A stretch of 53,805 bases of DNA from Coriobacteriia bacterium (GCA_030603745.1 JAUVXE010000014.1:1-53805), one strand, 5' to 3'; counted from the first letter of the stretch, positions 1-45,259 are shown. Numbers and translations are program-made. The notes: a model not told the origin generated them from the letters alone.

Positions 1-93
1 CCGCATCGGCGCCACTCGTCGCTCGGGAACTTGTCACCGGCGGAGTTCGAACGCAGACTGGAGCAGGAGCGGCTGTCAGCCGTAGCGTCCTAG
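1..93 (+). CDS. IS3-family transposase OrfB, C-terminal end (partial)
   Basis: The first 30 codons of the window read in frame 1 and end at a TAG. They encode RRHSSLGNLSPAEFERRL, the usual C-terminus of the DDE integrase of IS3-family OrfB proteins (family pattern RRHSxLGxxSPxEFE). The rest of the gene lies left of the window. The catalytic residues cannot be seen, so activity cannot be judged. It marks the left limit of the visible genomic island and probably arrived after or together with it. Confidence 0.8.
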   Translation, partial: PHRRHSSLGNLSPAEFERRLEQERLSAVAS

Positions 94-126
94 TTCCCAG
101 GTATCAACGGAAACGGGGCAACTCCA
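1..126 (+). mobile_element. Right end of an IS3-family insertion sequence
   Basis: After the transposase stop at 93, about 33 bases remain before the sequence character changes. They finish with GGGGCAACTCCA at 115-126, which resembles the terminal inverted repeat of actinobacterial IS3 elements (5' end TGGAGTTGCCCC). The exact end and any target duplication are inferred, because the left end of the element is outside the window. The bases just after the inferred end repeat ACTCCA. Confidence 0.5.
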
Positions 127-380
127 ACTCCACTACGCTTACGCCGTTCCCCTAAACAAGTCGTCTTCGAATTGATTCCTTCAAGTGTGGTGTGCTGTCC
201 CTGAAGGCTGGTCGATTACCTAGCTGCACGACGGCGCGACATGCCGCGCCCTCTTGAAGGCTAGATCGACTTCGACGATGACACGGTGATGCCGAGTGTG
301 TGGTCCAGCTCGAGTCTCGGAGGGGCTGGCGGCTGACTCTGTCGCTGTAGCTATGCGCCCCTCGTGGGATCCGAGCAGCC
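127..380. other. Non-coding or decayed stretch next to the IS
   Basis: No intact gene is supported here. On the minus strand, short coding-like fragments occur in more than one frame downstream of the DUF4420 gene (for example RVIVEVDLAFKRARHV), each ended quickly by stops. This would fit a decayed gene cut off by the IS3 element, but the fragments are too short to name. Systems of this kind often carry an AIPR-family gene here; none can be recognised. Confidence 0.35.
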
Positions 381-1394
381 CTAAGATGTCCGGTCTCGTT
401 CACGAAAGACCGCCGAAAACAGGCCGCCCTGGTCTGCGAGTGCCGTGGACTTGAGAGTCGGCGCTTCGGTGAGTTCAGCACTGAAATGGACATCCCGTAC
501 CTGCGAGGGAAGGTCGGGGTCAACGCGCGGTATATCCTTCGAATCATAAAGTCTTCTGCTGAGTTCGGCTGACCGTCGCTCATAGCGCACGCGGGTGGAC
601 TTTCGCCAGTCCGACCCAAGGCTTGACGCGATGATGCGGAATGTCCGCTCCTTCGTGGCCGCAGAAACGACTGGGGAGGAACGAATCTCCTCCCAGAGGT
701 CCTCGACTGAATCACCAGATATGGACTGAGTAAGCATGTAGGAAACTACGACCAGCTGAACGCCGGACTGAGGTAGCAGTTGTGCCAAGCTGAAGTGATG
801 AGCTCGTATTTCTCGAGTGGTCGACTTGACCTCTATCTGCTGTACCCCGCCAGTGAAATCGTGCTGGTCTCTTGGGTCGCGGTGCCAAGACCTGACGGCT
901 GCTGCGATATCTGCCGACTGGAGGATCAGAAGGAGTTCGGCCCAAAGGCCTTGGACCGATGTCCTTGACGGGAGAGACAGCGAGCGAAAGAGTTCAGCAA
1001 GGCGCTCCACGGCCACCGCGAGTTCTCGAGTGGTCGGCGCTTCGGAGAGAGCTGGAACCATGCCGCCGATAGCGTATAGGAAGTACTCCCGTAGCTCCCG
1101 ACTCTCGAGAGCGGAGGAGAGCACTGATAGCGACTCGTCGGCTTGCGATCCGGCACTCAGGACTCGGCACAGACACTCTGGCCGGAAGGTCAAGTTCGAG
1201 AGGATGATTGCAGGCTCTCGAGAGCCGACCGCATCCACTGTTCTAACAAGGAGGGCGGGATTCCCGGCGGCATCCTTGCCCAGCCTGACCCGGTCGGTGC
1301 CTGGTATTGGACACACGGAGTAGGAGTTCGCCGAATTGTCCGGCGATGGCAGTGTGTCAAATAGCGAGACGAGAGTCATATCAGTCGTCGTCAT
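381..1394 (-). CDS. PD-(D/E)XK nuclease-like protein, DUF4420 type
   Basis: Last gene of the defence operon, 337 aa. It is probably the DNA-cutting subunit. A restriction-endonuclease-fold active site is visible: Glu153 in GLWAELL, Asp179 in HDF, and Glu188-x-Lys190 in the strand QQIEVKST, which is the E-D-ExK pattern of this fold. This matches the DUF4420 'PD-(D/E)XK motif protein' family known beside Z1 and MORC-like genes. Its ATG overlaps the end of the Z1 gene by 14 nt, so translation is probably coupled. GC is clearly lower than in the core genes to the right. The family call is strong; the role in restriction is inferred from family and context. Confidence 0.85.
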   Translation of the reverse strand: MTTTDMTLVSLFDTLPSPDNSANSYSVCPIPGTDRVRLGKDAAGNPALLVRTVDAVGSREPAIILSNLTFRPECLCRVLSAGSQADESLSVLSSALESRELREYFLYAIGGMVPALSEAPTTRELAVAVERLAELFRSLSLPSRTSVQGLWAELLLILQSADIAAAVRSWHRDPRDQHDFTGGVQQIEVKSTTREIRAHHFSLAQLLPQSGVQLVVVSYMLTQSISGDSVEDLWEEIRSSPVVSAATKERTFRIIASSLGSDWRKSTRVRYERRSAELSRRLYDSKDIPRVDPDLPSQVRDVHFSAELTEAPTLKSTALADQGGLFSAVFRERDRTS

Positions 1395-3555
1395 GGATCA
1401 GAAAGTCCTCTGGCTTCGGGATTCTGATTGCGACAGCAGGGACATCCGCAACGTGCGTCGTTTCTTCCTCCAGAGTGAGCGTGTGTATCTGCACCGTAGG
1501 GACGCTCCTGTCAGCGAACGCGCGATCCCCTGGATACGATTCCGAGCCCGCGCTAGAGCGGCCTTGGAAGAGCTGCGGGATTGCACCATTTGACAGTCTT
1601 CTCACTCGCTGGCGGCCACTGTCCATTCTGTAAATCAAGCAGGTTGCGTCTGGCTCTCGCTCCAACAAACTCTCTAGGCAGCAATTCACGTAGCACAGTC
1701 CCACCGAGTCCCTATCGTCCAAGTAGGACCAAGGCACTAGCACCCTCTCGAAAACGTCCCGCAGGTGACAGACCGCGAAATGATGCTGCGGATATTGTTC
1801 ATTTGGGCGGAAGACAACGTCTTTCAAGGCACCAAGGAGTTGCCGGTTCTCGGACCCCTCGCCGCCCGACAGCTGGGGAGAGCGCGGAGCGAACCAGCCG
1901 TCTGATAGCCGAGGACGATCGTAGGGGCTCGCTAGAACGTTGCGGCGAGTCGGTGCAAGGCGACGATCAAGGTAGAAGACTCTGCGCCACTCCTTCATCG
2001 GTAATCCTTGGTGGTCACGAATCCGATTCCGCATGTCTTCTTCGTGGCGAATATAGGCGGTGAACGCCGCCTGTACATCAGGATGCAGGTAGACCCTGCA
2101 GAACCCAAGGTAGTCCGAGTGGTAGCCGAAGAACCTCGCCCGTTGCTGGATAGTGTCTGCGGTCCAACCTCCCGGAGAACGCGGCATGTAGGTCACCGTC
2201 AGTCCTTTAACGGTGTAACCGCGGCCGAGCTTCTCCCCGCCGACGAGTATGTGGGAGTAACCGTTGTCCCACGAGATCTCGCGGCCGTCGATTGAATTGA
2301 CCAAAGCGACTGACGTTTGATTGATTGCCGCAGGCAGCTTCTTCACAATTGCCTCGAACGGCGGCAAATCGCCAGCTGTGCACGCTATATCGTCGTGTGC
2401 GGCTTTGAACTCATCGAGGAGCTCTTCCCGGTCCTGCTCGCCCACTGCCAACAGCACACGGTGCCAATTGTCCTTTAAGAGATTCGCCCATTGATGGTAC
2501 CTCTGGTGGGTCGCAGTAGCCTTCGACGGATGAATAAGCATCGATCTGTGGCCGTTAGCGTTAGCGTATCGACCAGCAGCAACCCCAACAAAGAACAACT
2601 GGAGCGCTCGTATCAGGCTCTTCGGAACCTCATCGGGTAGCTGGCCGTCACGAAACACTTCAGCTGGCGGAATACGCTCGACGTAAGGTGATTCGCCTGC
2701 GAAGAATAACTGCCCGCCGACGTACCCGCCTCCGGGGGAAACCAGCTCGGCGAAGTCTGCAGACAGAGCGTCAATACGCGCGATTAGGAGCGGGGCTTGA
2801 GGAGTTGCGGTGTACTGGAGATAGGCGTGTTTCTGCAACGCAGCACGAAGCTCAAGGATGCTTCTATACGTCGTGCTCAAAGATGGATCATTAGGTCGCG
2901 TGTTCAAACTTGCCTGGTCGGCCTCATCATCGAACAGAATTGCTGGAACTTCACTGAGATCCACCGCGCTCAGGAGTTCGCAAAGGTTCCTGAGATGCAC
3001 GTGATTCTTCATGACGGTGATGAATAGCGTTCGCCGGTCCGCTTCGTCGTAAGCACTACTGCGCCACTCCTGAAGCAGGCTCTCTATGTCGTTCTTGTCT
3101 CTGAGTTTCGGGTTCGCCTTCATGATCCATGTCCACTCGGGCGCCGCTGCTCTGAGTTGAGTCTCCATCCGCTCGCGGTTTTGCCCGACGAGGTTAGTGG
3201 TAGTGCCGGCAATCAAGATGATGACGCGGTATCCGTTGTCCCTCGCCAAACCAGCAACAGCGGTCATCGACGCTGTCTTGCCGCTTTGAACGTAACCGCA
3301 GACAAGGCCTGTCGTCGGGTGCAATGCGTTGGGTGGCCCGCAACGTGAGAGAACGGTAAGGGCCTCCGAAATAATCGTGTCACTTTCTGAATCGGGAATG
3401 CCCGCGCTCTGAGTGAAGTACTGTCTCAGCCGTGACCCAACTTCACCAATGATGGGCCGCCAGTCATGAACGTGTGAATTGTCAATGATGTCAATCGTCT
3501 CGTCACTCGGCAATGTGAATTTCTCCCCCCTGAATCGGCCCAGATAGGGCACCAC
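1381..3555 (-). CDS. Z1 domain-containing helicase-like ATPase
   Basis: A 724-aa P-loop ATPase of the superfamily-II-like Z1 family. Walker A is GYVQSGKT (residues 87-94). Walker B is LFDDEAD (about 207-213). A motif-III-like TATPQA follows at about 249-254, and an arginine-finger-like QQRARFFGY at 470-478 lies in the block that defines the Z1 domain, with GGEKLGRGYT just before it. It probably uses ATP to move on or remodel DNA for the partner nuclease. The frame begins 53 nt inside the MORC-like gene; a later start is possible but no better ribosome site is obvious. Order and overlaps tie it to its neighbours as one operon. Confidence 0.9.
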   Translation of the reverse strand: MVPYLGRFRGEKFTLPSDETIDIIDNSHVHDWRPIIGEVGSRLRQYFTQSAGIPDSESDTIISEALTVLSRCGPPNALHPTTGLVCGYVQSGKTASMTAVAGLARDNGYRVIILIAGTTTNLVGQNRERMETQLRAAAPEWTWIMKANPKLRDKNDIESLLQEWRSSAYDEADRRTLFITVMKNHVHLRNLCELLSAVDLSEVPAILFDDEADQASLNTRPNDPSLSTTYRSILELRAALQKHAYLQYTATPQAPLLIARIDALSADFAELVSPGGGYVGGQLFFAGESPYVERIPPAEVFRDGQLPDEVPKSLIRALQLFFVGVAAGRYANANGHRSMLIHPSKATATHQRYHQWANLLKDNWHRVLLAVGEQDREELLDEFKAAHDDIACTAGDLPPFEAIVKKLPAAINQTSVALVNSIDGREISWDNGYSHILVGGEKLGRGYTVKGLTVTYMPRSPGGWTADTIQQRARFFGYHSDYLGFCRVYLHPDVQAAFTAYIRHEEDMRNRIRDHQGLPMKEWRRVFYLDRRLAPTRRNVLASPYDRPRLSDGWFAPRSPQLSGGEGSENRQLLGALKDVVFRPNEQYPQHHFAVCHLRDVFERVLVPWSYLDDRDSVGLCYVNCCLESLLEREPDATCLIYRMDSGRQRVRRLSNGAIPQLFQGRSSAGSESYPGDRAFADRSVPTVQIHTLTLEEETTHVADVPAVAIRIPKPEDFLIHDDD

Positions 3556-5047
3556 GCAGGATCTGATTCAAGTTCATGCGGATAGTGCCTGCCTGGCGCA
3601 CACCAATCTCGCGTGCCGTAAGTTCTGAAATTGCCAATGCAGCCGCCAGGCGCGTGAAGGGAACCACCTCATCCCCTTGCGGAGAGACAAACCTGACCAT
3701 GAACGGGTGACCCAGGTTCACCCTAATGTGGACTCTGGTTTCGCCGCCTGACTCCAACCTCTCGGCGACTTCATACCAGTCCTCTCGTGTGCCGTCGTTG
3801 ACAAGTTCGATTGCGACACGCCACGTTCTGTGGGCGTGTTCCAAGGCAAGACTGACTTCTTCTCGTCGAGCCTGGCCAGTCGCCGGGCACTCGAGCATGG
3901 GAGGTGGGGGCGCCTGACTCGGCTGCCGTGAAAGCTGATCGGTGATCAACGGGGGCAGGTGCTGCGCAATCGACGCACTCGTATCCCGCGCGGCCTCAAT
4001 AAGGACATCCTTGGCAACAGTCGCACGCGCACGATAGTTGTCCGCCTGTTGAAGAAGAGGCAGCGGGCTTGAGTCCAGCTCTATCTTCAACCAGTGGAGA
4101 ATATCCTCCTCCCAATCATCCCACTGGAGGCCGTCCTTCGTATGACTGACGCTGAATCCTTCGACTGCGAGTTCGCCAATGAGGCGCTGGTAAATGAACT
4201 TGTTCGACGGCCCGAAAATCGACTCCGGGCGATAACCCTCCCCGGGACTACCGAGAATCAGTCGCCTTCGGCGAAACACGGCGAATCCAGCGTTCGCCAC
4301 ACTTGCACGAGCAAGGAGCCCTGCCCATCCGGTTATTCGGTGTCCGTCACCTAGGTCAAGATTGATGTCCTTGCGCCAGACGACAGGCGGCTGTTCGGGG
4401 GTGGCGTAGAACGGCACCTCCAGCAAGGTCGGAAGCTCATAACTCAGCGGCTCACCGTTGAACCGAAGCTCGAGAATCCCGTCCCTGAGGAATAGACGGT
4501 AGATGCTGGAGAGATGCTCCTTGATTTTTCCTATTGTTCGCCCGCGTGGCCTAACGTTGAGGTCGTAAATCTTGATAGTGGTGTAGTGGGCATTCGGCTC
4601 GACGCTGCGAACTGTCGGCTGCAGGCTCTCGCAGTGAGTGTCAACGATTAGGGGAATGTCAAACGTTATAGTGCTCTCTTGCGCCTCCTCGATGGCGCTG
4701 GTGCGCACGGACCACTTGCGACCGAACCAGCTGGCGGCCGCCTTCATCCCCAGCCCGAATTCTGAGAGACCCGAAGTGTCTGGGGGCGGGCATGCGGGAA
4801 GGAACGCCCGGTCGTAATCGGGTTCGGCTATGCCCGCCGCGTTGTCTCGTATCTCAATGCAGTCTTCACTAACATCTATCTCGACGACCACTCGATAATC
4901 CCCGCCGTGTAGTCTGGCGAGTTCCCGATAATTGGCGAGTCCGCTTTGAAGCGAGTTGTCTACGAACTCAGCGAGCGCGTACCACGGGCGGTAGTTTAGA
5001 CGAGCGAAGGCCGCATACATCGCAACCTCGGGCCGAATCATCACCAT
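3503..5047 (-). CDS. MORC/MutL-like GHKL ATPase
   Basis: 514 aa. The N-terminus carries a GHKL (HATPase_c_3) ATP site: N box EFVDNSLQS (Glu27, Asp30, Asn31), G1 box RDNAAGI (68-73) and G2 box EFGLGMKAAAS (97-105). This arrangement is typical of prokaryotic relatives of eukaryotic MORC proteins, which Iyer, Abhiman and Aravind placed in restriction-modification gene clusters. The rest has no motif I can name with confidence. It starts 15 nt after the methyltransferase stop and overlaps the Z1 gene. It likely acts as an ATP-gated clamp or switch with the Z1 ATPase and DUF4420 nuclease; that role is inferred. Confidence 0.88.
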   Translation of the reverse strand: MVMIRPEVAMYAAFARLNYRPWYALAEFVDNSLQSGLANYRELARLHGGDYRVVVEIDVSEDCIEIRDNAAGIAEPDYDRAFLPACPPPDTSGLSEFGLGMKAAASWFGRKWSVRTSAIEEAQESTITFDIPLIVDTHCESLQPTVRSVEPNAHYTTIKIYDLNVRPRGRTIGKIKEHLSSIYRLFLRDGILELRFNGEPLSYELPTLLEVPFYATPEQPPVVWRKDINLDLGDGHRITGWAGLLARASVANAGFAVFRRRRLILGSPGEGYRPESIFGPSNKFIYQRLIGELAVEGFSVSHTKDGLQWDDWEEDILHWLKIELDSSPLPLLQQADNYRARATVAKDVLIEAARDTSASIAQHLPPLITDQLSRQPSQAPPPPMLECPATGQARREEVSLALEHAHRTWRVAIELVNDGTREDWYEVAERLESGGETRVHIRVNLGHPFMVRFVSPQGDEVVPFTRLAAALAISELTAREIGVRQAGTIRMNLNQILRGALSGPIQGGEIHIAE

Positions 5048-5062
5048 TGACTCTCTCCAAAC

Positions 5063-6304
5063 CTAGTCCGTGCTGCGAACGGGCCGAGCGCGACCGGGAC
5101 CCTTCCCTACGCCTGGGTGCGGCGCGTGCTCGCCCCGCATAGAAAGGAACTGCTGTTCAACAGGCTGAGTGGGTTGAGGCTCAGGCACGGGAAGGCGGCG
5201 CTGAGGAACAAAACTTCCGCCTGCAGGGAGATGCTCATGTCCCAGCAGCTGCCTGCGAATCTCTAGCCCGAGTAGTTCAGCAAGCGCGCACGGTACCGCG
5301 TTGCCAACCTGGCGATGTGCGGACCTACGATCGCCTACGAACTCATAGCTGTCCGGGAAGGTCTGAAGCCTGGCGAGTTCGCGCGTCGATAGCATTCGGT
5401 TTCGCCAGTGAAACGGGCCTGTGGCTGGGCCGGGCGCAGCTTGGATCGTCCAAGAAGGAAGCGTCTTCGCGAGCTTGAGCAGAAACGACCAGTACCGGGT
5501 TCGATGCCCAAACAGAGGCTCGCCGCCCCCTGATGACGTATGCCAAAGGTAGTTGTGCCCCTCTGGGATGCTTGGGAGCAGCTGGGCCCACTTACCCTTT
5601 AGAGCTAGTTCCTCGGGCCAGACATCCGCGTCGAGATCGCCTATGGCGTCCCAAGTGGTCCGAATAGCAGACATTCCCGGGTCTTGCCCGTGGGTGGGCG
5701 GCGGAAGCTCGAGCTGGCGTCCATCAATCGTTGCTACTACAAAGAGCCGCTCGCGTCTCTGTGGGACGCCGTACTCTGCCGCGTTGAGATGTATTACCTG
5801 TGGATTGTAGGCGGTCCCCAACGTCTCGTTAAGACGACGTACGCCTTCGGATAGCAACTCCACGCCGCTTCGCTCGCCGCCAGTGGCGATTCCCCTGACG
5901 TTCTCGAGCAGCAAGACCTGGGGCTGCACAGCTTCGACGACGTCAAGATACGCGTTCAAAGTCCGAGCGCGCGGGTCATTCAGTCCCCGACGCCGGTTGG
6001 CCCAGTTTGCGGACATTGAGAACGGCTGACAAGGAGGTCCACCAGCGAGGAGCTTGACTTCCCCAGGTCGTCGGCCCGCTTCAGCCAACAACTGCTCTGG
6101 TGCGATTTCGTGGATGTCTCCCTGTTCGAGCAGCAGCCAGTCGGGACGATTGAGCTTGATTGTCTTACGACAGTGGTCATCGATCTCAACGCATGCGCAA
6201 ACGTCGAACCCTGCAGACTCGAGTCCAAGGTCGAGTCCGCCAGCCCCCGTGAATAGAGAGATGACTGACGCGTCTTGCCTGAGCGACAGCTCGTGCTCTT
6301 TCAC
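5063..6304 (-). CDS. dcm: DNA (cytosine-5-)-methyltransferase
   Basis: 413 aa. It transfers methyl groups from S-adenosylmethionine to C5 of cytosine at a target site and probably marks self DNA for this defence system. All key motifs are present: motif I SLFTGAGGLDLGLESAGF (16-33), motif IV GGPPCQPFS with catalytic Cys92, motif VI ENVRG (134-138), motif VIII QRRERLF (182-188), and motif X RQVGNAVP (about 331-338). The segment between VIII and X, where the target recognition domain lies, is about 120 residues, short to average. The last ~65 residues are proline-rich and look disordered. It is the first intact gene of the operon, 15 nt before the MORC-like gene. Confidence 0.93.
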   Translation of the reverse strand: MKEHELSLRQDASVISLFTGAGGLDLGLESAGFDVCACVEIDDHCRKTIKLNRPDWLLLEQGDIHEIAPEQLLAEAGRRPGEVKLLAGGPPCQPFSMSANWANRRRGLNDPRARTLNAYLDVVEAVQPQVLLLENVRGIATGGERSGVELLSEGVRRLNETLGTAYNPQVIHLNAAEYGVPQRRERLFVVATIDGRQLELPPPTHGQDPGMSAIRTTWDAIGDLDADVWPEELALKGKWAQLLPSIPEGHNYLWHTSSGGGEPLFGHRTRYWSFLLKLAKTLPSWTIQAAPGPATGPFHWRNRMLSTRELARLQTFPDSYEFVGDRRSAHRQVGNAVPCALAELLGLEIRRQLLGHEHLPAGGSFVPQRRLPVPEPQPTQPVEQQFLSMRGEHAPHPGVGKGPGRARPVRSTD

Positions 6305-6379
6305 AGATGTAGAGGTCTCCTCACTTGGCGGCTCTCAGTATCGTAAAGCAAGACAGTCCTCGACCCAAGCCTCCCGTGC

Positions 6380-6772
6380 CTAAGGCTGGCTTTGGCAATC
6401 AGCCAGGAGTCGCCTGAGGTCATCGATGCTGCGAGGCTCGCATACTGCGTGCAGCACGCGATGGCAGCAAGCGCAGACCAAGGCTAGATCATCGAGGCGG
6501 GTTTCCGATTCGCCGTCGAGTTCAGCGAGCGGAACGATGTGATGGCATTCGAGAGCGGCTCGTCCAGCTTCGCCGTAGAGATCATACGGCCGTAGACCAC
6601 ACACCCTGCATTCGTATGAAGCTGACTGCAGCGCCTCCTCCTTCAGGGTCTCCGCGAGGTCTCGATTCCGTTCCCGGACAAGGTGATTAGACACGCGGAG
6701 AGCGTTCTCCTTGACCGACAGGGCGCCGCGCGACTTGGCATGCTCAAGACCCGGCCGGGGGTGCCAGTGCAT
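6380..6772 (-). CDS. HNH endonuclease domain protein (probable C-terminal part of a broken gene)
   Basis: 130 aa from ATG 6772. It contains an HNH nuclease of the McrA-like, zinc-binding type: Cys pair CRVCG, then ECHHIVPL (metal and catalytic His), and LVCACCHRVLH with the second Cys pair. This start is doubtful. It has no clear ribosome site, and the codons before it look coding in the +1-shifted frame. I read it as the 3' part of a longer gene damaged by frameshifts (next entry), although the nuclease domain itself is whole. It lies 75 nt upstream of the methyltransferase in the same direction and could have been an accessory nuclease of the system. Confidence 0.7.
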   Translation of the reverse strand: MHWHPRPGLEHAKSRGALSVKENALRVSNHLVRERNRDLAETLKEEALQSASYECRVCGLRPYDLYGEAGRAALECHHIVPLAELDGESETRLDDLALVCACCHRVLHAVCEPRSIDDLRRLLADCQSQP

Positions 6773-7107
6773 GTCCCTTCAGGAGTTCCTCTACGGCATC
6801 GGGATTACGCTTCAACAGAGACAGCCAAGCACCTGCGTGGGCCTGAGTACTTGCACTCCCTCGCACGCCCCAGTTGCCCTTAGAATCACTGAACCCAACG
6901 TAACTGCCAAGAGTGGGCGCTGTGGGGTGTTGAATCGGCCAACAGACGTGCGACTTCGGCGGGCAGGCTGCGCCGGCCACGCTTTACGCAATATTCCTCG
7001 AAGAGCGTTACGGCCAGAGCCCAGTCAGAGTCTGTATAAGCGTTGACCACACTATTCTCCCAGTGAGCGCGCTTCTGGATTGACTTGCCCAGCCTGTTAG
7101 AACAATG
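6773..7107 (-). pseudogene. Frameshifted 5' part of the HNH endonuclease gene
   Basis: Reading leftward from 7107, one frame gives coding-like sequence (for example WENSVVNAYTDSDWALAVTL and LFEEYCVKRGRRSLPPAEVA) up to a stop near 6882. Just before that stop, the +1 frame opens with YVGFSDSKGNWGVRG and LLKRNPDAVEELLKGH, and stops at 6744. It overlaps a third frame, the HNH entry, at a run of five Cs. Three successive frames without strong internal starts suggest one ancestral gene with two +1 shifts. The alternative is sequencing error in this low-coverage-looking lower-GC part. No convincing ATG is seen at the upstream end; GTG 7050 is the first plausible start. Confidence 0.5.
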
Positions 7108-7173: not shown

Positions 7174-7250
<77 letters not shown>

Positions 7251-31403: not shown

Positions 31404-32192
31404 ATGCTTGCACGCGCCCGACACGCGCTTCGCGCCCACGGACCCAAGGTCGCCGTGACCGCGCTGGCGGTATCGGTCGTGCTGGCGCTGCTTGCCCCGG
31501 CCACCGCGCACGCGATCCGCACCCAGGGACAGATCTCCGTCACGCTCAGCGACACCGCCGCGCTGCGTGTCGCCACCTATACGATCGAGCGCTTTCGCAC
31601 CGACAACAACGAGACGATCACCGGCTACACGATCGCCTTCCCCGCAGGCACGGACGTCTCCGGGGCCACATCTGCCGGGACCGGCGACTCGGTCGCTGTC
31701 GTGGGGCCCTCCACGATCCGCGTGACGCTCGGCACGGCGATCGGGCGCAACACCACCTTCTCGATCGTGATCGACGGGATCCGGAACCCGGTCGCCGCAG
31801 GCTCGTACCGCATCAGCCAGGTGACCTTCCATCGGCCCAACGGTGACGTGACGCTGCCGTTCCCCGGCACCGAGGGCTCCTACACGGTCACCCCCGAGCC
31901 GTTCCTCGCAGTCTCGATCTCGACCAACTCGGTCGTGTTCGACCTCTATCCCGAGGCAGCACCCGCCCCCCAGCAGGTCCAGCTCTCGGTCGAGTCGTCG
32001 CACGACTTCAGCATCACCCGGCAGATCACCGGCGACGCGGGGCTGATCGGCCTTATCGTCGACGGTACCGCCGTAGGCCCCAAGACCGCCGGTGTCGCCA
32101 CCTTCACAGACACGTTCACCGCGGACGTGCCGTGGACGACCGAGGGTGAGCGCTCCTACACGGCCACCGTCACCTACACGGTGGTCCAGTAG
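31404..32192 (+). CDS. Secreted two-domain beta protein with WxL-like C-terminus (paralog 1)
   Basis: 262 aa from ATG 31404 (CGGAG 10 nt upstream). Signal peptide core VAVTALAVSVVLALLAPATA, cut near AHA. The mature protein is Thr/Val/Ser-rich with few charged helices, likely two beta-sandwich domains. The second (about 165-262) shares features with the next three genes: LSVESSHDFSI (where others have VxSxxxWxL) and the final strand SYTATVTYTVVQ, which recalls the C-terminal YxxxWxL strand of WxL domains. No sortase motif and no membrane tail. It is probably surface-bound through non-covalent wall binding; this is inference. Confidence 0.65.
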   Translation: MLARARHALRAHGPKVAVTALAVSVVLALLAPATAHAIRTQGQISVTLSDTAALRVATYTIERFRTDNNETITGYTIAFPAGTDVSGATSAGTGDSVAVVGPSTIRVTLGTAIGRNTTFSIVIDGIRNPVAAGSYRISQVTFHRPNGDVTLPFPGTEGSYTVTPEPFLAVSISTNSVVFDLYPEAAPAPQQVQLSVESSHDFSITRQITGDAGLIGLIVDGTAVGPKTAGVATFTDTFTADVPWTTEGERSYTATVTYTVVQ

Positions 32193-32204
32193 CGCTCACG
32201 CTCC

Positions 32205-32289
32205 GACCGTTCGCCCCCGACGAACGGTCAATCCTTCTGGGGATTGTGCCACTCGTCACACTATTCCGCCGAACGGCATGAGACCGTTC
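32205..32289. promoter_or_regulatory. Two ACCGTTC inverted repeats before paralog 2
   Basis: GACCGTTCG (32205-32213) faces CGAACGGTC (32221-32229) over 7 nt. A second pair in opposite polarity, GAACGG (32271-32276) and CCGTTC (32284-32289), also has a 7-nt gap. The half-site ACCGTTCGT fits the published LytTR-type consensus [TA][AC][CA]GTTN[AG][TG], and a LytTR regulator is encoded 3 kb away. The first pair could also be the terminator of the upstream gene. Confidence 0.5.
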
Positions 32290-32388
32290 ACCTCGTACTG
32301 CGACGTCCCGATGTTCACGGTGTACGAGAAGACAGCTGATCCGCGGCCCGCGCCGCACAGCACGCACACCGACCAAGGAGGACACGTA

Positions 32389-32817
32389 ATGAAGAGGACC
32401 GCAGTCATCGCGACCATGATCGTCGCCCTGGCGTTCGGAGCCGTCGGCTTCGCCGTCGCCGCCGCCGAGAACGTCGTCGTGACGGCCAACGTCGGCTCCG
32501 CCTTCGAGATGACGCTCGAGGGCGACAGCGCGATCACCCTGGCCGCCGCCCCCGGCGACGCGCCCGTCTCTGACGGCTCCGCGCTCCGCGTGAAGTCGAA
32601 CCGCCTGTGGGACTTCAGCAAGGGCGTCGTCTACTCTGACGCGCTCTTCGGTACGTTCATGAGCGACAGCACCAGCGTCGCGACCGGCACCGGCCTCGGC
32701 CGCGGCGTCACCGACATCACCACCGGCTACACCCTCGACCTGAGCGGCGACGCCGCCTACTCGCTCACGAACGACGCCTACACCGCCACCTACACCTACA
32801 CGGCCGTCCAGCAGTAA
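32389..32817 (+). CDS. Small secreted WxL-like beta protein (paralog 2)
   Basis: 142 aa with AAGGAGG before ATG 32389. Signal peptide (TAVIATMIVALAFGAVGFAV, cut after VAA). The mature ~118 residues show NVVVTANVGSAFEMTLEG, LRVKSNRLWDFS (the W-x-L/F site) and the end YTATYTYTAVQQ. Nearly all beta. The longest leader in the cluster (about 195 nt) holds two CCGTTC inverted repeats, and the gene ends in a strong terminator, so it is probably an abundant, separately controlled surface protein. Confidence 0.7.
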   Translation: MKRTAVIATMIVALAFGAVGFAVAAAENVVVTANVGSAFEMTLEGDSAITLAAAPGDAPVSDGSALRVKSNRLWDFSKGVVYSDALFGTFMSDSTSVATGTGLGRGVTDITTGYTLDLSGDAAYSLTNDAYTATYTYTAVQQ

Positions 32818-32860
32818 GCAGCCTCCGGAGCGTCAAGCCGACACCTCTCGCAACAGGATC

Positions 32861-32892
32861 GTGGGGCCGGAGCATCACCGCTCCGGCCCCAC
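32861..32892 (+). terminator. Strong terminator hairpin after paralog 2
   Basis: GTGGGGCCGGAGC (32861-32873) pairs perfectly with GCTCCGGCCCCAC (32880-32892) over the 6-nt loop ATCACC: a 13-bp stem with no T-run. Confidence 0.85.
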
Positions 32893-32974
32893 GCGCATAA
32901 CGGGGACATTCAGACCTGAACGCTCGTGATGCTCCTGCGGGGAGGCAGGGGCATCGCAACGCCGGGAGCCATCC

Positions 32975-33472
32975 GTGCTACTTCGATCAGCCGATCCCCC
33001 ATACCGCCGGACCCGACTCGCCACGGCCGCACTCCTGTCGACGGCGATGATGGCGGTCGCCCTCATCGCGCCGCCCCGCACCGGGGCCGACTCCGCGAGC
33101 GTGGTGGTCACGGCGCGCATCGAGCCGACCTTCTCGCTCACCCTACTCTCGAGCGGGGTGGTCGACTTCGGCACGGTCTCGCTCGGATCCACGCACCTGT
33201 CGCGCGAGCCGCAGGTCCTTCGGGTGCGCTCGAGCCGCCCGTGGGTGCTCTCCGACTCCTCGGACCGGATGATCGAGATCGGAGACCTCACCGTGGACCG
33301 TGAGTCCATCCTGCGCCACGCCGCTCCGATGGATTTCGATGTGGTGCGCGACCCAGGGGTCCACACGATCGAGTGCCTCTTCGAACTCGACCTCGCGAGC
33401 CCGATCGCCTTCGACCTCCCGCCGGACGTGGAGATCTCGACCACCTTCGGCTACACCGCGCTCCAGCGCTAG
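32975..33472 (+). CDS. Small secreted WxL-like beta protein (paralog 3)
   Basis: 165 aa from GTG 32975 (weak GGGAG upstream). Signal peptide with hydrophobic core ALLSTAMMAVALIAPP. The mature part has SVVVTARIEPTFSLTLLSSG, VDFGTVSLGS, LRVRSSRPWVLSDSS (WxL motif) and the end FGYTALQR. It has more acidic and aromatic residues than its neighbours. Same layout as paralogs 2 and 4. Confidence 0.7.
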   Translation: MLLRSADPPYRRTRLATAALLSTAMMAVALIAPPRTGADSASVVVTARIEPTFSLTLLSSGVVDFGTVSLGSTHLSREPQVLRVRSSRPWVLSDSSDRMIEIGDLTVDRESILRHAAPMDFDVVRDPGVHTIECLFELDLASPIAFDLPPDVEISTTFGYTALQR

Positions 33473-33580
33473 TCGCCCGCCGCCCGACGGGCAGCCGGGA
33501 GCGTCCGGCCGTCTCAAACCCCCGCCCAGCGTGCCGCTCATCCGATAGTCGCGCCCAAGTGTGCGCTTGTCACACATATT

Positions 33581-33627
33581 GTACCGTTCATCCGCCGATT
33601 CCAACCGTACAGGCGGATGAAAGGTAC
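33581..33627 (+). promoter_or_regulatory. Long inverted repeat that covers the ribosome site of paralog 4
   Basis: GTACCgTTCATCCGCC (33581-33596) pairs with GGCGGATGAAaGGTAC (33612-33627), 15 of 16 positions, with a 15-nt loop. The AAAGG that serves ATG 33632 lies in the right arm, so a folded transcript would hide it. The left arm also contains ACCGTTCAT, a fit to the LytTR half-site. It may act as DNA operator, RNA switch, or both. Confidence 0.65.
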
Positions 33628-33631
33628 TGTG

Positions 33632-33937
33632 ATGGGCACCCGAACGGCATTCGTGGCTCTCGTGACCGTGGCGCTCGTTGTGGCGATACTCGGAGTGCCG
33701 GTCCTCGCCGCTGCGACGAGCGCGTCGGTGACGGTCACGTTCGTGGTCGCCCCCTCCGTCACCGCCGAGGTCGTCGATGACGGCCTGCGGGTGCTCTCCA
33801 ACGCGCCCTGGACGCTGGTCGCCGAGACCGCCGAGGGAAGCGTCACGGTGCAGGGGGACGCCACAGGCGGCGCTGGGCGCCTCGTCGAGCTCCCCGGGCT
33901 GACCGGCTACACGCTGGTGCTCGAGTCCTCCCGCTGA
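33632..33937 (+). CDS. Very small secreted WxL-like beta protein (paralog 4)
   Basis: 101 aa from ATG 33632, 7 nt after AAAGG; ATG 33617, in frame, lies inside the hairpin and has no good ribosome site. Signal peptide TAFVALVTVALVVAILGVPV, cut near LAAA. The mature ~75 residues keep SASVTVTFVVAPSVTAEV and LRVLSNAPWTLVAE (WxL motif), but the domain ends early (GYTLVLESSR), the smallest form. The 3' end overlaps the convergent DUF916-like gene by 31 nt. Confidence 0.65.
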   Translation: MGTRTAFVALVTVALVVAILGVPVLAAATSASVTVTFVVAPSVTAEVVDDGLRVLSNAPWTLVAETAEGSVTVQGDATGGAGRLVELPGLTGYTLVLESSR

Positions 33938-34989
33938 TCGGAAGCGCCCTCATGCTCCTCGGCGAGTCGCGCGCGGCGCTCCTCCCGGGTCCGCTCCTCG
34001 CGCTCGTGCTTGCGGCGTGATGAGCGAACCGCCAGCTTCCACGAGAGCCACAGCACCGGCAGCCCGATGGCGAGGATCAGCAGGATCGCGGCCCACAGCG
34101 GCACGACCCAAAACGTCCGGTCCTTGCGGATCACCTCGGGCATGACCGTCCCGGGCTCCGAGCCGGCCTCGCGGTCGTAGGCCACCTCGACACGCATGGT
34201 GAAGCGGCCGAAGCGGGCGTTGTCGAGCTTGAGCCCGCCCAGATATTCGCGCTGCCCCTGCGCGTAGACGATCGCCGAGGTCTCCACGACCGAGCGCATC
34301 CGCTCGGCCTCGTTCCCGTCGAGGACCACGAGCGAGGGCTCGTAGCGCTTGTCGATGTTGCCGTCGTTGACGACACGGAACGAGTAGGGCACGGTGTCGC
34401 CGATGTTGAAGGAGCGCACCGAGAAGGGGGCGACGTCCATCCGGTCGATGACGTCACCGGCCACGCGCAGCACGATGCGCGCACCGATGCGTCCCGAGAT
34501 CCGCGAGGTGGTCCCGGTGTCGCTCGCTGCGAACTCGAACATCTCGAAGAAGATGACCGCGTTGTAGTCGCCGGGGGTGGCGTTGCCTGGCACCCGCATC
34601 TCGAAGTCGATGTCGAGCGCCTGCCCCGGATCGAGCTCGATGTAGGGCGTGTTCGCGACGACCTTGGTGGTGTCGGGGACGCGCAGGCTCATCCAGGAGG
34701 CGGGGCTGCGCAGGAACTCGCCCGGCTCACCGGTGGGCTTCACGTAGTCAGGCTCGCCCTGCTCGTCGTAGCGCACGTCGCTCGTATAGATGAGCGCGCG
34801 TAGGGGCTCGGTGCCGTTGTTCGACACGCGGACCGAGTCGTTGGCGATGCTTCCCGGCGCGAGCGAGAGCTCGATGGTGCCGGTGTTGAGCGCGATCGTC
34901 CGCTCGGCGGGCGCGACCGCCGGGACGAGCAGTCCCACCAGGAGCACCACGCCGAGCGCGAGCGAGAGCTTCCTCGGACTCCGCCTCAT
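33907..34989 (-). CDS. DUF916/WxLIP-like membrane-anchored surface protein
   Basis: 360 aa. Signal peptide (LALGVVLLVGLLVPAVAPA), then two beta domains: first TGTIELSLAPGSIANDSVRV with RVPGNATPGDYNAVIFFEMF, second about 165-275 with YSFRVVNDGNIDKRYEP. One membrane helix (about 292-315) and a very charged cytoplasmic tail of about 45 residues follow. This layout matches DUF916/DUF3324 (WxL-interacting) proteins of Firmicutes, which are encoded beside WxL proteins; homology is judged by layout and local resemblance only. The ATG overlaps the stop of the LytTR regulator (TGATG), so the two are co-translated. The likely role is anchoring the adjacent small proteins. Confidence 0.65.
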   Translation of the reverse strand: MRRSPRKLSLALGVVLLVGLLVPAVAPAERTIALNTGTIELSLAPGSIANDSVRVSNNGTEPLRALIYTSDVRYDEQGEPDYVKPTGEPGEFLRSPASWMSLRVPDTTKVVANTPYIELDPGQALDIDFEMRVPGNATPGDYNAVIFFEMFEFAASDTGTTSRISGRIGARIVLRVAGDVIDRMDVAPFSVRSFNIGDTVPYSFRVVNDGNIDKRYEPSLVVLDGNEAERMRSVVETSAIVYAQGQREYLGGLKLDNARFGRFTMRVEVAYDREAGSEPGTVMPEVIRKDRTFWVVPLWAAILLILAIGLPVLWLSWKLAVRSSRRKHEREERTREERRARLAEEHEGASDQREDSSTSV

Positions 34990-35735
34990 CAGATGCCCAC
35001 CGCCTCGCGGAAGCCGCGCACCTGCCTGCGGGCCACCGGGATGTGGGTCTCGTCACGGTCTCCCGCGACCACGACGAACGCACCGTCGAGCCGCTGGATC
35101 TCCTTGATGCGATTCATGTTGATCATGTAGCTCCGATGCACGCGGATGAACGACTCCTTGCCGAGCTTCTCCTCGAGCTCACCTAAGGTGAGGTCCACGA
35201 GGTACTGGTTCTCGTAGGTGTGCGCGTAGGTCGACTTGTTGCGGGCCGAGAGGAAGACGATGTCGTCGATCGCGAGGAGCACCGTGCGGCCCCCCTTGCG
35301 GACCGCGAGCTTGCGGAAGTCCGACTCGCCGGCACGCATCGTCTCGCCCATCATCCTCCTCCGGCCCACTGCGAGGCTCTCGATGCGCGCGGAGAGCTCG
35401 AGGATGTTGAAGGGCTTCGTGACGTACTGCTGCACGCCCTGCTTGAACGCGAGGATCTTGGCGAGGTCCTGCGTCTTGGCGGTGAGCATGATGACCGGGG
35501 TGTCGGCGGTCATGGGGTTGTTGCGGATCTCCATGAGTGCCATCCAGCCGTCGACCCTCGGCATCATCAGGTCGAGGACGACGACATCGATGTGCTCACG
35601 GCCGAGAACCTCGATGCCCTCGGCGCCGTCGGCCGCCGAGAAGACCCGCATCCCGTCGGCCTCGAGACCCATCCGGATCATCTCGACGATCGACTCGTCG
35701 TCGTCGACGACGAGCACCGCGATGTCGTCAGCCAT
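34989..35735 (-). CDS. LytTR-family response regulator
   Basis: 248 aa from ATG 35735; GTG starts at 35747 and 35741 are possible. The receiver domain (4-125) has acidic pocket DDD, phosphorylated Asp in VVVLDLMMPRVDG, Thr in IMLTAKT and Lys in YVTKPF. The C-terminal LytTR domain (about 145-245) has ARNKSTYAHTYENQYLVDLT and ESFIRVHRSYMINMNRIKEI. It binds DNA through a beta-fold at short direct or inverted repeats. No histidine kinase is in the window. It is translationally coupled to the DUF916-like gene. Confidence 0.93.
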   Translation of the reverse strand: MADDIAVLVVDDDESIVEMIRMGLEADGMRVFSAADGAEGIEVLGREHIDVVVLDLMMPRVDGWMALMEIRNNPMTADTPVIMLTAKTQDLAKILAFKQGVQQYVTKPFNILELSARIESLAVGRRRMMGETMRAGESDFRKLAVRKGGRTVLLAIDDIVFLSARNKSTYAHTYENQYLVDLTLGELEEKLGKESFIRVHRSYMINMNRIKEIQRLDGAFVVVAGDRDETHIPVARRQVRGFREAVGI

Positions 35736-35757: not shown

Positions 35758-35807
35758 GACGAACGGCCGAGACCGCTCGTCGCCGGATGATTCGCACGGT
35801 GAGTATA
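35758..35807 (-). promoter_or_regulatory. Promoter and leader hairpin of the LytTR operon
   Basis: A minus-strand TATACT (complement of 35802-35807) is a good -10. Downstream of it, in the expected leader, lies GACGAACGG (35758-35766) against CCGCTCGTC (35773-35781), 8 of 9 pairs, 6-nt loop. The core GACGAACGG recurs at 32219-32227 and, with one change, at the spoVG leader. Confidence 0.5.
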
Positions 35808-44864: not shown

Positions 44865-45170
44865 CTAGGAGACGGGCTCCGCGACGTGGTCCTCGGCGGC
44901 CTCGCCGAAGGCATCGAGTCCGCCCTCTTCGCTGAACTGGTCGAGCACGGCCTGCTGGATCCGGTCGCGCGCCTCGCTGTTGATCGGGTGGCAGATATCG
45001 CGGAAGTCCCCGTTGGGGAGCTTGCGCGACGGCATCGCCACGAACAGCCCCTTGTCGCCGTTGACCACGCGCAGATCGTGAACGACGAACGCGTCATCGA
45101 TCACGATGCTCGCGATCGCGCACACCTTGTTCATGGCGACGGAACGCAGCGTGACCTTCGTGATCTCCAT
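44865..45170 (-). CDS. spoVG: SpoVG-family RNA/DNA-binding regulator
   Basis: 101 aa from ATG 45170 (AAAGGGGGAG upstream); the longer frame lacks support. Family blocks: MEITKVTLRSVAMNKVCAIA, FVVHDLRVVNGDKGLFVAMP, DICHPINSEARDRI. SpoVG is a site-specific nucleic-acid-binding protein that affects septation and envelope genes in Firmicutes. The C-terminal tail is acidic. Its leader holds the GACGAACG hairpin. Confidence 0.95.
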   Translation of the reverse strand: MEITKVTLRSVAMNKVCAIASIVIDDAFVVHDLRVVNGDKGLFVAMPSRKLPNGDFRDICHPINSEARDRIQQAVLDQFSEEGGLDAFGEAAEDHVAEPVS

Positions 45171-45217
45171 CGGACTCCCCCTTTGTGCGCGATGATGTGC
45201 GGCAGACACGCGAAGCA

Positions 45218-45240
45218 CCGTTCGTCCGCCCCGACGAACG
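45218..45240 (-). promoter_or_regulatory. Leader inverted repeat of spoVG
   Basis: CGTTCGTC (45219-45226) and GACGAACG (45233-45240) pair perfectly over 6 nt; the left arm extends to ACCGTTCGTC. It lies 48 nt upstream of spoVG and just after the stop of the preceding gene, so it could be a weak terminator, an attenuator or an operator. The core repeats that seen at 32.2 and 35.8 kb. Confidence 0.5.
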
Positions 45241-45259
45241 ATCCCGAACCCCCACTGCT

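Follow-up and report, generated by a model that had tools for sequence, protein, structure and literature searches.

We describe a six-gene locus of a Coriobacteriia bacterium that likely encodes a divergent surface assembly of the WxL/WxLIP type. The locus occupies positions 31404-35735 of a 53,805-nucleotide stretch of DNA (GCA_030603745.1 JAUVXE010000014.1:1-53805), the whole of which we call the window. In it, four genes for secreted proteins, P1 to P4, converge on two genes that encode a LytTR response regulator (RR) and a membrane protein (DUF). We regard a WxL-like assembly as the best explanation because the locus has the same set of large, small, and WxLIP-type genes, because the membrane protein and the secreted proteins strictly co-occur, and because DUF is related to DUF916 proteins.

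When the open reading frames were re-read, all six genes of a first-pass annotation of this DNA proved real and correctly placed. The plus strand encodes P1 (31404-32192, 262 amino acids (aa)), with a signal peptide, an N-terminal domain, and a C-terminal WxL-like module; P2 (32389-32817, 142 aa), a stand-alone secreted module; P3 (32975-33472, 165 aa, GTG start), a second such module; and P4 (33617-33937, 106 aa), a shortened module of about 75 aa after its predicted signal peptide. The minus strand encodes RR (34989-35735, 248 aa) and DUF (33907-34989, 360 aa), a WxLIP-like protein with a signal peptide, two predicted immunoglobulin (Ig)-like beta domains, one C-terminal transmembrane helix, and a basic tail. 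The RR stop and the DUF start overlap as TGATG, so that the two genes of this operon, as previously described, are translationally coupled; the 3' ends of the convergent P4 and DUF genes overlap by 31 bp. P1 is not a minimal protein: a further domain precedes its module, and its orthologs can be as long as about 1000 aa.

The membrane protein and the secreted modules are gained or lost together as one unit. DUF matches were found in 43 of 99 relatives searched, all from the window's own Coriobacteriia order, of which 69 genomes were sampled; none of the 30 from elsewhere in the class had one. Only two loci came from a scan of public contigs, and the named relatives with DUF are metagenome-assembled genomes called "Coriobacteriia bacterium" and "Actinomycetota bacterium". 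Genes in the relatives' loci were called with our own GC-frame script, which gives approximate start positions. Across the order there is a single arrangement: a DUF711/PFL gene, P1 (260 to ~1000 aa), P2, P3 in only some genomes, often P4, the convergent DUF, RR, and nfnAB-like genes. Both flanks were visible in 38 genomes, of which 25 have DUF together with modules, 13 have neither, and none is mixed. At the unit-free sites, the PFL and RR ends are spaced by -3 to 47 bp. RR itself is present in 60 of the 69 genomes of the order, with full-length matches at 69-86% identity, and none of 15 loci fetched from genomes with RR but no detected DUF contains P1-P4 or DUF. On the RR tree, presence of the unit requires at least 11 state changes, a count that is approximate because the tree was built from one protein. 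Independent co-change pairs number 4 on supported branches, all concordant, and 10 on all branches. A module profile was run against five whole genomes, one of them the window's, and found no copy outside this locus. Because this profile is locus-specific in those genomes and the same gene order is found across the order, the pattern goes beyond chance, and the observed co-occurrence supports the view that the secreted proteins behave as obligate partners of DUF.

The first-pass annotation had called the membrane protein DUF916/WxLIP-like, and its orthologs uphold this. PF06030 (WxLIP_PGBD) matches 31 of 38 DUF orthologs (best E 1.7e-7), and in 8 genomes the match, located at this locus each time, exceeds Pfam's curated cut-off. 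A profile of the 38 orthologs aligned with a profile of nine Firmicutes WxLIP proteins, fetched from plasmids, at 96.8% probability (E 2e-10, 222 columns), while reversed and shuffled controls reached at most 20.7%. A WxL query consensus served only to fetch the WxL/WxLIP plasmid clusters and entered no comparison; as an aside, one Klebsiella plasmid record (CP069367.1, H52) has a WxL-like stretch that looks like Gram-positive assembly contamination. The first Ig domain alone gives 95.2%, and in a profile search of the PDB the Enterococcus faecium WxLIP ranked first, although weakly (E 0.25). By sequence, then, DUF is a divergent DUF916/WxLIP relative, with the relationship carried by the first Ig domain. 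The 25 families listed as matching the orthologs do not include PF11797 (DUF3324/HBD), the second family named for its profile searches. Kinase matches of DUF in the PDB (phmmer) were judged spurious. In the window's DUF, a hydropathy peak at ~295-313 is followed by the basic tail, and the AlphaFold2 (AF2) model has a helix at 298-350. The 20 residues after the peak hold a median of 6 K/R across the 38 orthologs, and positive charge behind the transmembrane segment is also found in Firmicutes WxLIP proteins. Because a basic tail follows the helix, we suggest that DUF is anchored in the membrane of the bacterium itself, contrary to the published proposal that insertion is into the host membrane (PMC10599100). 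A distant second DUF-like gene (L071, G047:C32:73533-74399; 26% identity, E 1e-7) lies off-locus in a relative, adjoining a NarL-type two-component pair.

The secreted proteins are related to one another. The P1 C-terminus, P2, and P3 form one module family by sequence homology, and the P4 family aligns with it at 96.4% probability (E 1e-9). The motifs said to be shared by all four hold for most of them: VTxxV is found in P2, P3, and P4; a W-x-L/F site in P2 (LWDF), P3 (PWVL), and P4 (PWTL); and a Tyr-rich final strand in P1 (TYTVVQ), P2 (TYTAVQQ), and P3 (GYTALQR). P1 has F in the tryptophan column (HDFSIT). Among P4 orthologs, the W of PWxL is kept in 20 of 20 and the L in 19 of 20; in the wider family, the W column holds F, W, or Y in 41 of 55. 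A second W-x-L motif, which WxL domains have in addition to the first, is replaced in the modules by one of Y-T-V type (YTxV). A bridge to WxL comes through actinobacterial WxL-like proteins, with which the modules align at 67% probability (E 5e-5), colinear over 110 columns. Jackknife runs of this comparison range from 31 to 91%, about half of them at full length, and reversed controls reach at most 1.1%. One module ortholog (L070) matches the actinobacterial WxL profile at 3e-6.

P1 and P2 also resemble WxL proteins in their place within the cluster. P1 orthologs of ~850-1000 aa carry Ig-like arrays (FixG_C, Ig_VWA7, MG2), one has NIDO and fn3 domains, and ortholog L036 matches PF10989 above the cut-off; the N-terminal domain of P1 is DUF2808-like in one ortholog. 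The Ig-like, NIDO, and fn3 domains fit a "large WxL" protein, of which they would form the adhesive head, and by analogy P1 fits as the counterpart of such a protein and P2 as that of a "small WxL" protein.

Several results weigh against the WxL/WxLIP assignment. PF13731, the WxL family, matches none of P1-P4, the 53 modules, or the 20 P4 members, nor anything in the window's whole genome; in Pfam and NCBIfam searches of the six window proteins, RR alone gets a name. Direct profile comparison of the modules with Firmicutes WxL (hhalign) gives a non-significant 3%, and some P1 decoy windows reach 23-41% against the WxL-like proteins, in alignments of 22-30 columns. The window's own DUF has no PF06030 match in Pfam searches, and no DUF916 model matches it. 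The second Ig domain of DUF aligns with WxLIP at only 12.6%, although colinearly. The AF2 models, built from 3-4 sequences, are weak (pLDDT 58 for DUF and 60 for P2), and the P2 model has no significant Foldseek match. Finally, the co-change pairs on supported branches are few. Because the bridging probability is intermediate and variable, the decoys reach part of its range, the direct comparison fails, and L070 matches the bridging profile, we grade the modules as probably compact WxL relatives. The earlier likeness to minimal WxL domains is probable through the actinobacterial bridge, but PF13731 never matched a module.

Beta-rich modules beside an Ig-like membrane protein could instead form a donor-strand fibre, in which pilin- or TasA-like modules polymerise via N-terminal VTVTATV strands and DUF acts as membrane-tethered PapD-like chaperone and base. 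The structural searches point partly in this direction. Foldseek with the weak DUF model returned the PapD-like chaperones CfaA, FimC, and Caf1M next to WxLIP structures 9i25 and 9i1y (~1e-6 to 1e-5), matches that we use as support only because Ig-like folds are common. The best matches of the P2 model are the CfaB pilin, CsuE, and TasA/TLP fibres, and a TasA-like protein stands third (E 0.63) when the module profile is run against the PDB. However, these module matches are all non-significant and come in part from weak models, the unit lacks genes for an usher, a sortase, or a signal peptidase, and the large head and C-terminal module of P1 fit the WxL arrangement. We therefore consider such a fibre unlikely.

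It could also be that the secreted Ig-like proteins are unrelated to WxL and DUF is a generic Ig-like anchor, so that the likeness to WxL/WxLIP reflects convergence of beta-rich proteins. The absence of PF13731 from all 53 modules would agree with this, as would the commonness of Ig and MSP folds and the resulting lack of specificity of the Foldseek matches. Convergence would not readily account for PF06030 matches above a curated cut-off in eight genomes, for profile probabilities far above those of reversed and shuffled controls, or for the same large/small/WxLIP gene set with strict co-occurrence, and we judge it quite improbable.

The unit is linked to a regulator that is older and more widespread than itself. 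RR has a receiver domain (PF00072, 3.3e-27) and a LytTR domain (PF04397, 3.1e-25); no gene at the locus was recognised as encoding a kinase. In the relatives, RCCGTTCRTC half-sites are abundant upstream of P1, P2, P4, and RR, and direct repeats with a 20-21 bp period occur 32 times in 103 upstream regions, whereas random pieces of those loci yield 3.7. Published LytTR sites have ACC half-sites 11-13 bp apart, mostly 12 bp (PMC6193735), and the repeats upstream of the unit's genes match them in spacing and in the ACC core. The window has four exact half-sites, three of which precede P2, P4, and RR. The putative P2 promoter contains a conserved 30-bp element (GCCACTCGTCACACTATTCCGCCGAACGGC, 32248-32277, plus strand) in which about 20 bp separate two half-sites of LytTR type. 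The element consists of a half-site, a TCACACTATT-like spacer, and CCGNRCGGC; 477 kb of locus DNA contain 12 matches to it, each of them before a P2-type gene. Upstream of P4 is a direct repeat of LytTR type, ACCGTTCAT-12 bp-ACCGTACAG (33583-33613, plus strand), with an exact RCCGTTCRTC at 33583, and among relatives, 16 upstream regions of P4 contain 14 direct-repeat pairs. Upstream of RR are the inverted half-sites GCCGTTCGTC (minus) and ACCGCTCGTC (plus) at 35758-35781. Such a site lies no more than 175 nt from RR in 25 of 31 unit-bearing and 9 of 13 unit-free genomes, compared with 11.8% of random windows. A further inverted pair directly after P1, ACCGTTCGCC/ACCGTTCGTC (the latter on the minus strand; 32206-32228), forms a perfect hairpin and could be either LytTR-like half-sites or the P1 terminator; because it may be a terminator, we left it out of the binding-site count.

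These sites suggest that RR is probably autoregulated, and that it may control the unit through the P2 and P4 promoters, with DUF as its operon partner. Since RR sites are also present in unit-free genomes, autoregulation looks ancestral and the unit looks to have been recruited by RR. RR is not dedicated to the locus, as it occurs in most genomes of the order including unit-free ones, and the phrase "its own LytTR regulator" is not supported. The weakest alternative, a LytTR Regulatory System (LRS) with DUF as membrane inhibitor or sensor of RR and the secreted proteins as targets, shares RR-DUF coupling and likely autoregulatory promoter sites with published LRS operons (PMC6193735), but RR has a full receiver domain, and DUF, a WxLIP relative, has an ectodomain and crosses the membrane once. 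An LRS, in which the regulator is obligately paired with a membrane inhibitor, is highly improbable and was rejected because RR persists without DUF in the 15 fetched genomes.

Some sites of this type lie elsewhere. The fourth exact half-site of the window (ACCGTTCGTC plus an inverted ATCGTTCGTC, 45217-45242) immediately precedes a SpoVG-like gene (44865-45218, minus strand), a possible regulon member. A strict LytTR pattern had no match genome-wide in the window's genome; a relaxed one had 14 matches in 21 genomes, compared with 3 for the reversed pattern. In three relatives (L085, L086, and L092, in G063, G045, and G061), direct repeats precede the same gene, which is conserved, encodes a small membrane protein, follows a gene for a large one, and is likely a second RR target. 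In the window's genome, a LytTR direct repeat (L095, G000:C14:73412-73441) lies between a Crp/Fnr-like gene and a neighbouring gene cluster.

In the published model of WxL clusters, a beta-hairpin strand of WxLIP inserts into a gap of the WxL sandwich (PMC10599100). Modelled on this prediction for the enterococcal proteins, DUF would sit with its C-terminal helix in the cell's own membrane and its two Ig-like domains facing outward, and would supply a beta strand that completes the beta-sandwiches of the modules it holds: the C-terminal domain of P1, P2, P3, and the shortened P4. P1 would be the functional tip: its N-terminal part, which varies and in relatives includes NIDO, fn3, or Ig-like arrays, may bind to a ligand or to a surface, with the small modules as the presumed base. 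RR would switch the P2 and P4 promoters and drive DUF as its operon partner. The whole may therefore function as a regulated surface adhesin assembly. A bolder reading, which is possible but doubtful, is that the locus represents a minimal form of membrane-chaperoned strand donation in Gram-positives, in which a variable adhesin is displayed by a PapD/WxLIP-like membrane protein that completes incomplete Ig-like subunits of as few as 75 residues, the unit having been recruited by a LytTR regulator. If this is true, WxL systems and the pilins of chaperone-usher systems would share a single mechanistic theme.

Whether such a locus is new to actinobacteria depends on its form. PF06030 is found in 27 of 296 sampled Actinomycetota genomes, and these genes are often flanked by secreted WxL relatives (98.2%, E 6e-14), two of which (L128 and L134) pass the PF13731 cut-off. 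General novelty in actinobacteria therefore fails; what is new here is the compact variant of the WxL/WxLIP kind. Its unit structure, compact modules, and LytTR link were not found in the literature searched, the coverage of which is incomplete. WxL/WxLIP systems have been described almost only from host-associated Firmicutes and read as virulence or adhesion devices. The compact Coriobacteriia form and the full-size actinobacterial pairs together suggest that systems of this kind have a wider range, and perhaps a greater age, than has been assumed; the compact modules offer natural minimal domains for studying how WxLIP holds its partners.

Away from the locus, window positions 1-7000 have a G+C content of 56-62%, compared with ~71% elsewhere, and this stretch ends near a tRNA-Met gene (7174-7250). 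An open reading frame within it (5063-6304) resembles a cytosine DNA methyltransferase, so it may be a foreign restriction-modification island.

We compared the locus with four kinds of known system. It is like PapD/FimC/CfaA chaperones in the tandem Ig-like domains of DUF, which unlike them is membrane-anchored, shows no sequence similarity that we found, and has no usher; in the conserved neighbourhood, the only part of the genome searched for one, no recurring gene encodes a beta-barrel of usher size. RR is like LytTR regulators of the AgrA/ComE/YpdB type in its domains and in repeats with an ACC core and 11-12 bp spacing, and differs from typical systems in the lack of a recognised kinase gene at the locus and in its CCGTTCRTC half-site. 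As in the widespread Actinomycetota pairs (L128, L129, L130, L134, L139, L144, and L145), a DUF916-like gene adjoins genes for secreted WxL-like proteins; in those pairs, the WxL-like C-termini are full-size domains, some fused to HtaA, GH18, or fn3, and no LytTR partner was seen. The closest comparison is with the WxL clusters of Lactobacillales and Bacillales, such as the E. faecium loci and the elr operon, which encode small WxL, large WxL, and WxLIP (DUF916-DUF3324-transmembrane) proteins. Relative to these, the modules are ~100-110 aa rather than 160-190 (P4 ~75 aa), have YTxV for the second WxL motif, and are not certified as WxL; the second Ig domain of DUF is likewise uncertified, there is no LPXTG protein, and a LytTR regulator is linked. 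As in the Firmicutes clusters, however, one cluster combines a large protein with a C-terminal module, stand-alone modules, and a two-Ig single-pass membrane protein (PMC10599100), the first Ig domain of which is homologous to WxLIP_PGBD; the layout is the same, and the parts of the locus strictly co-occur.

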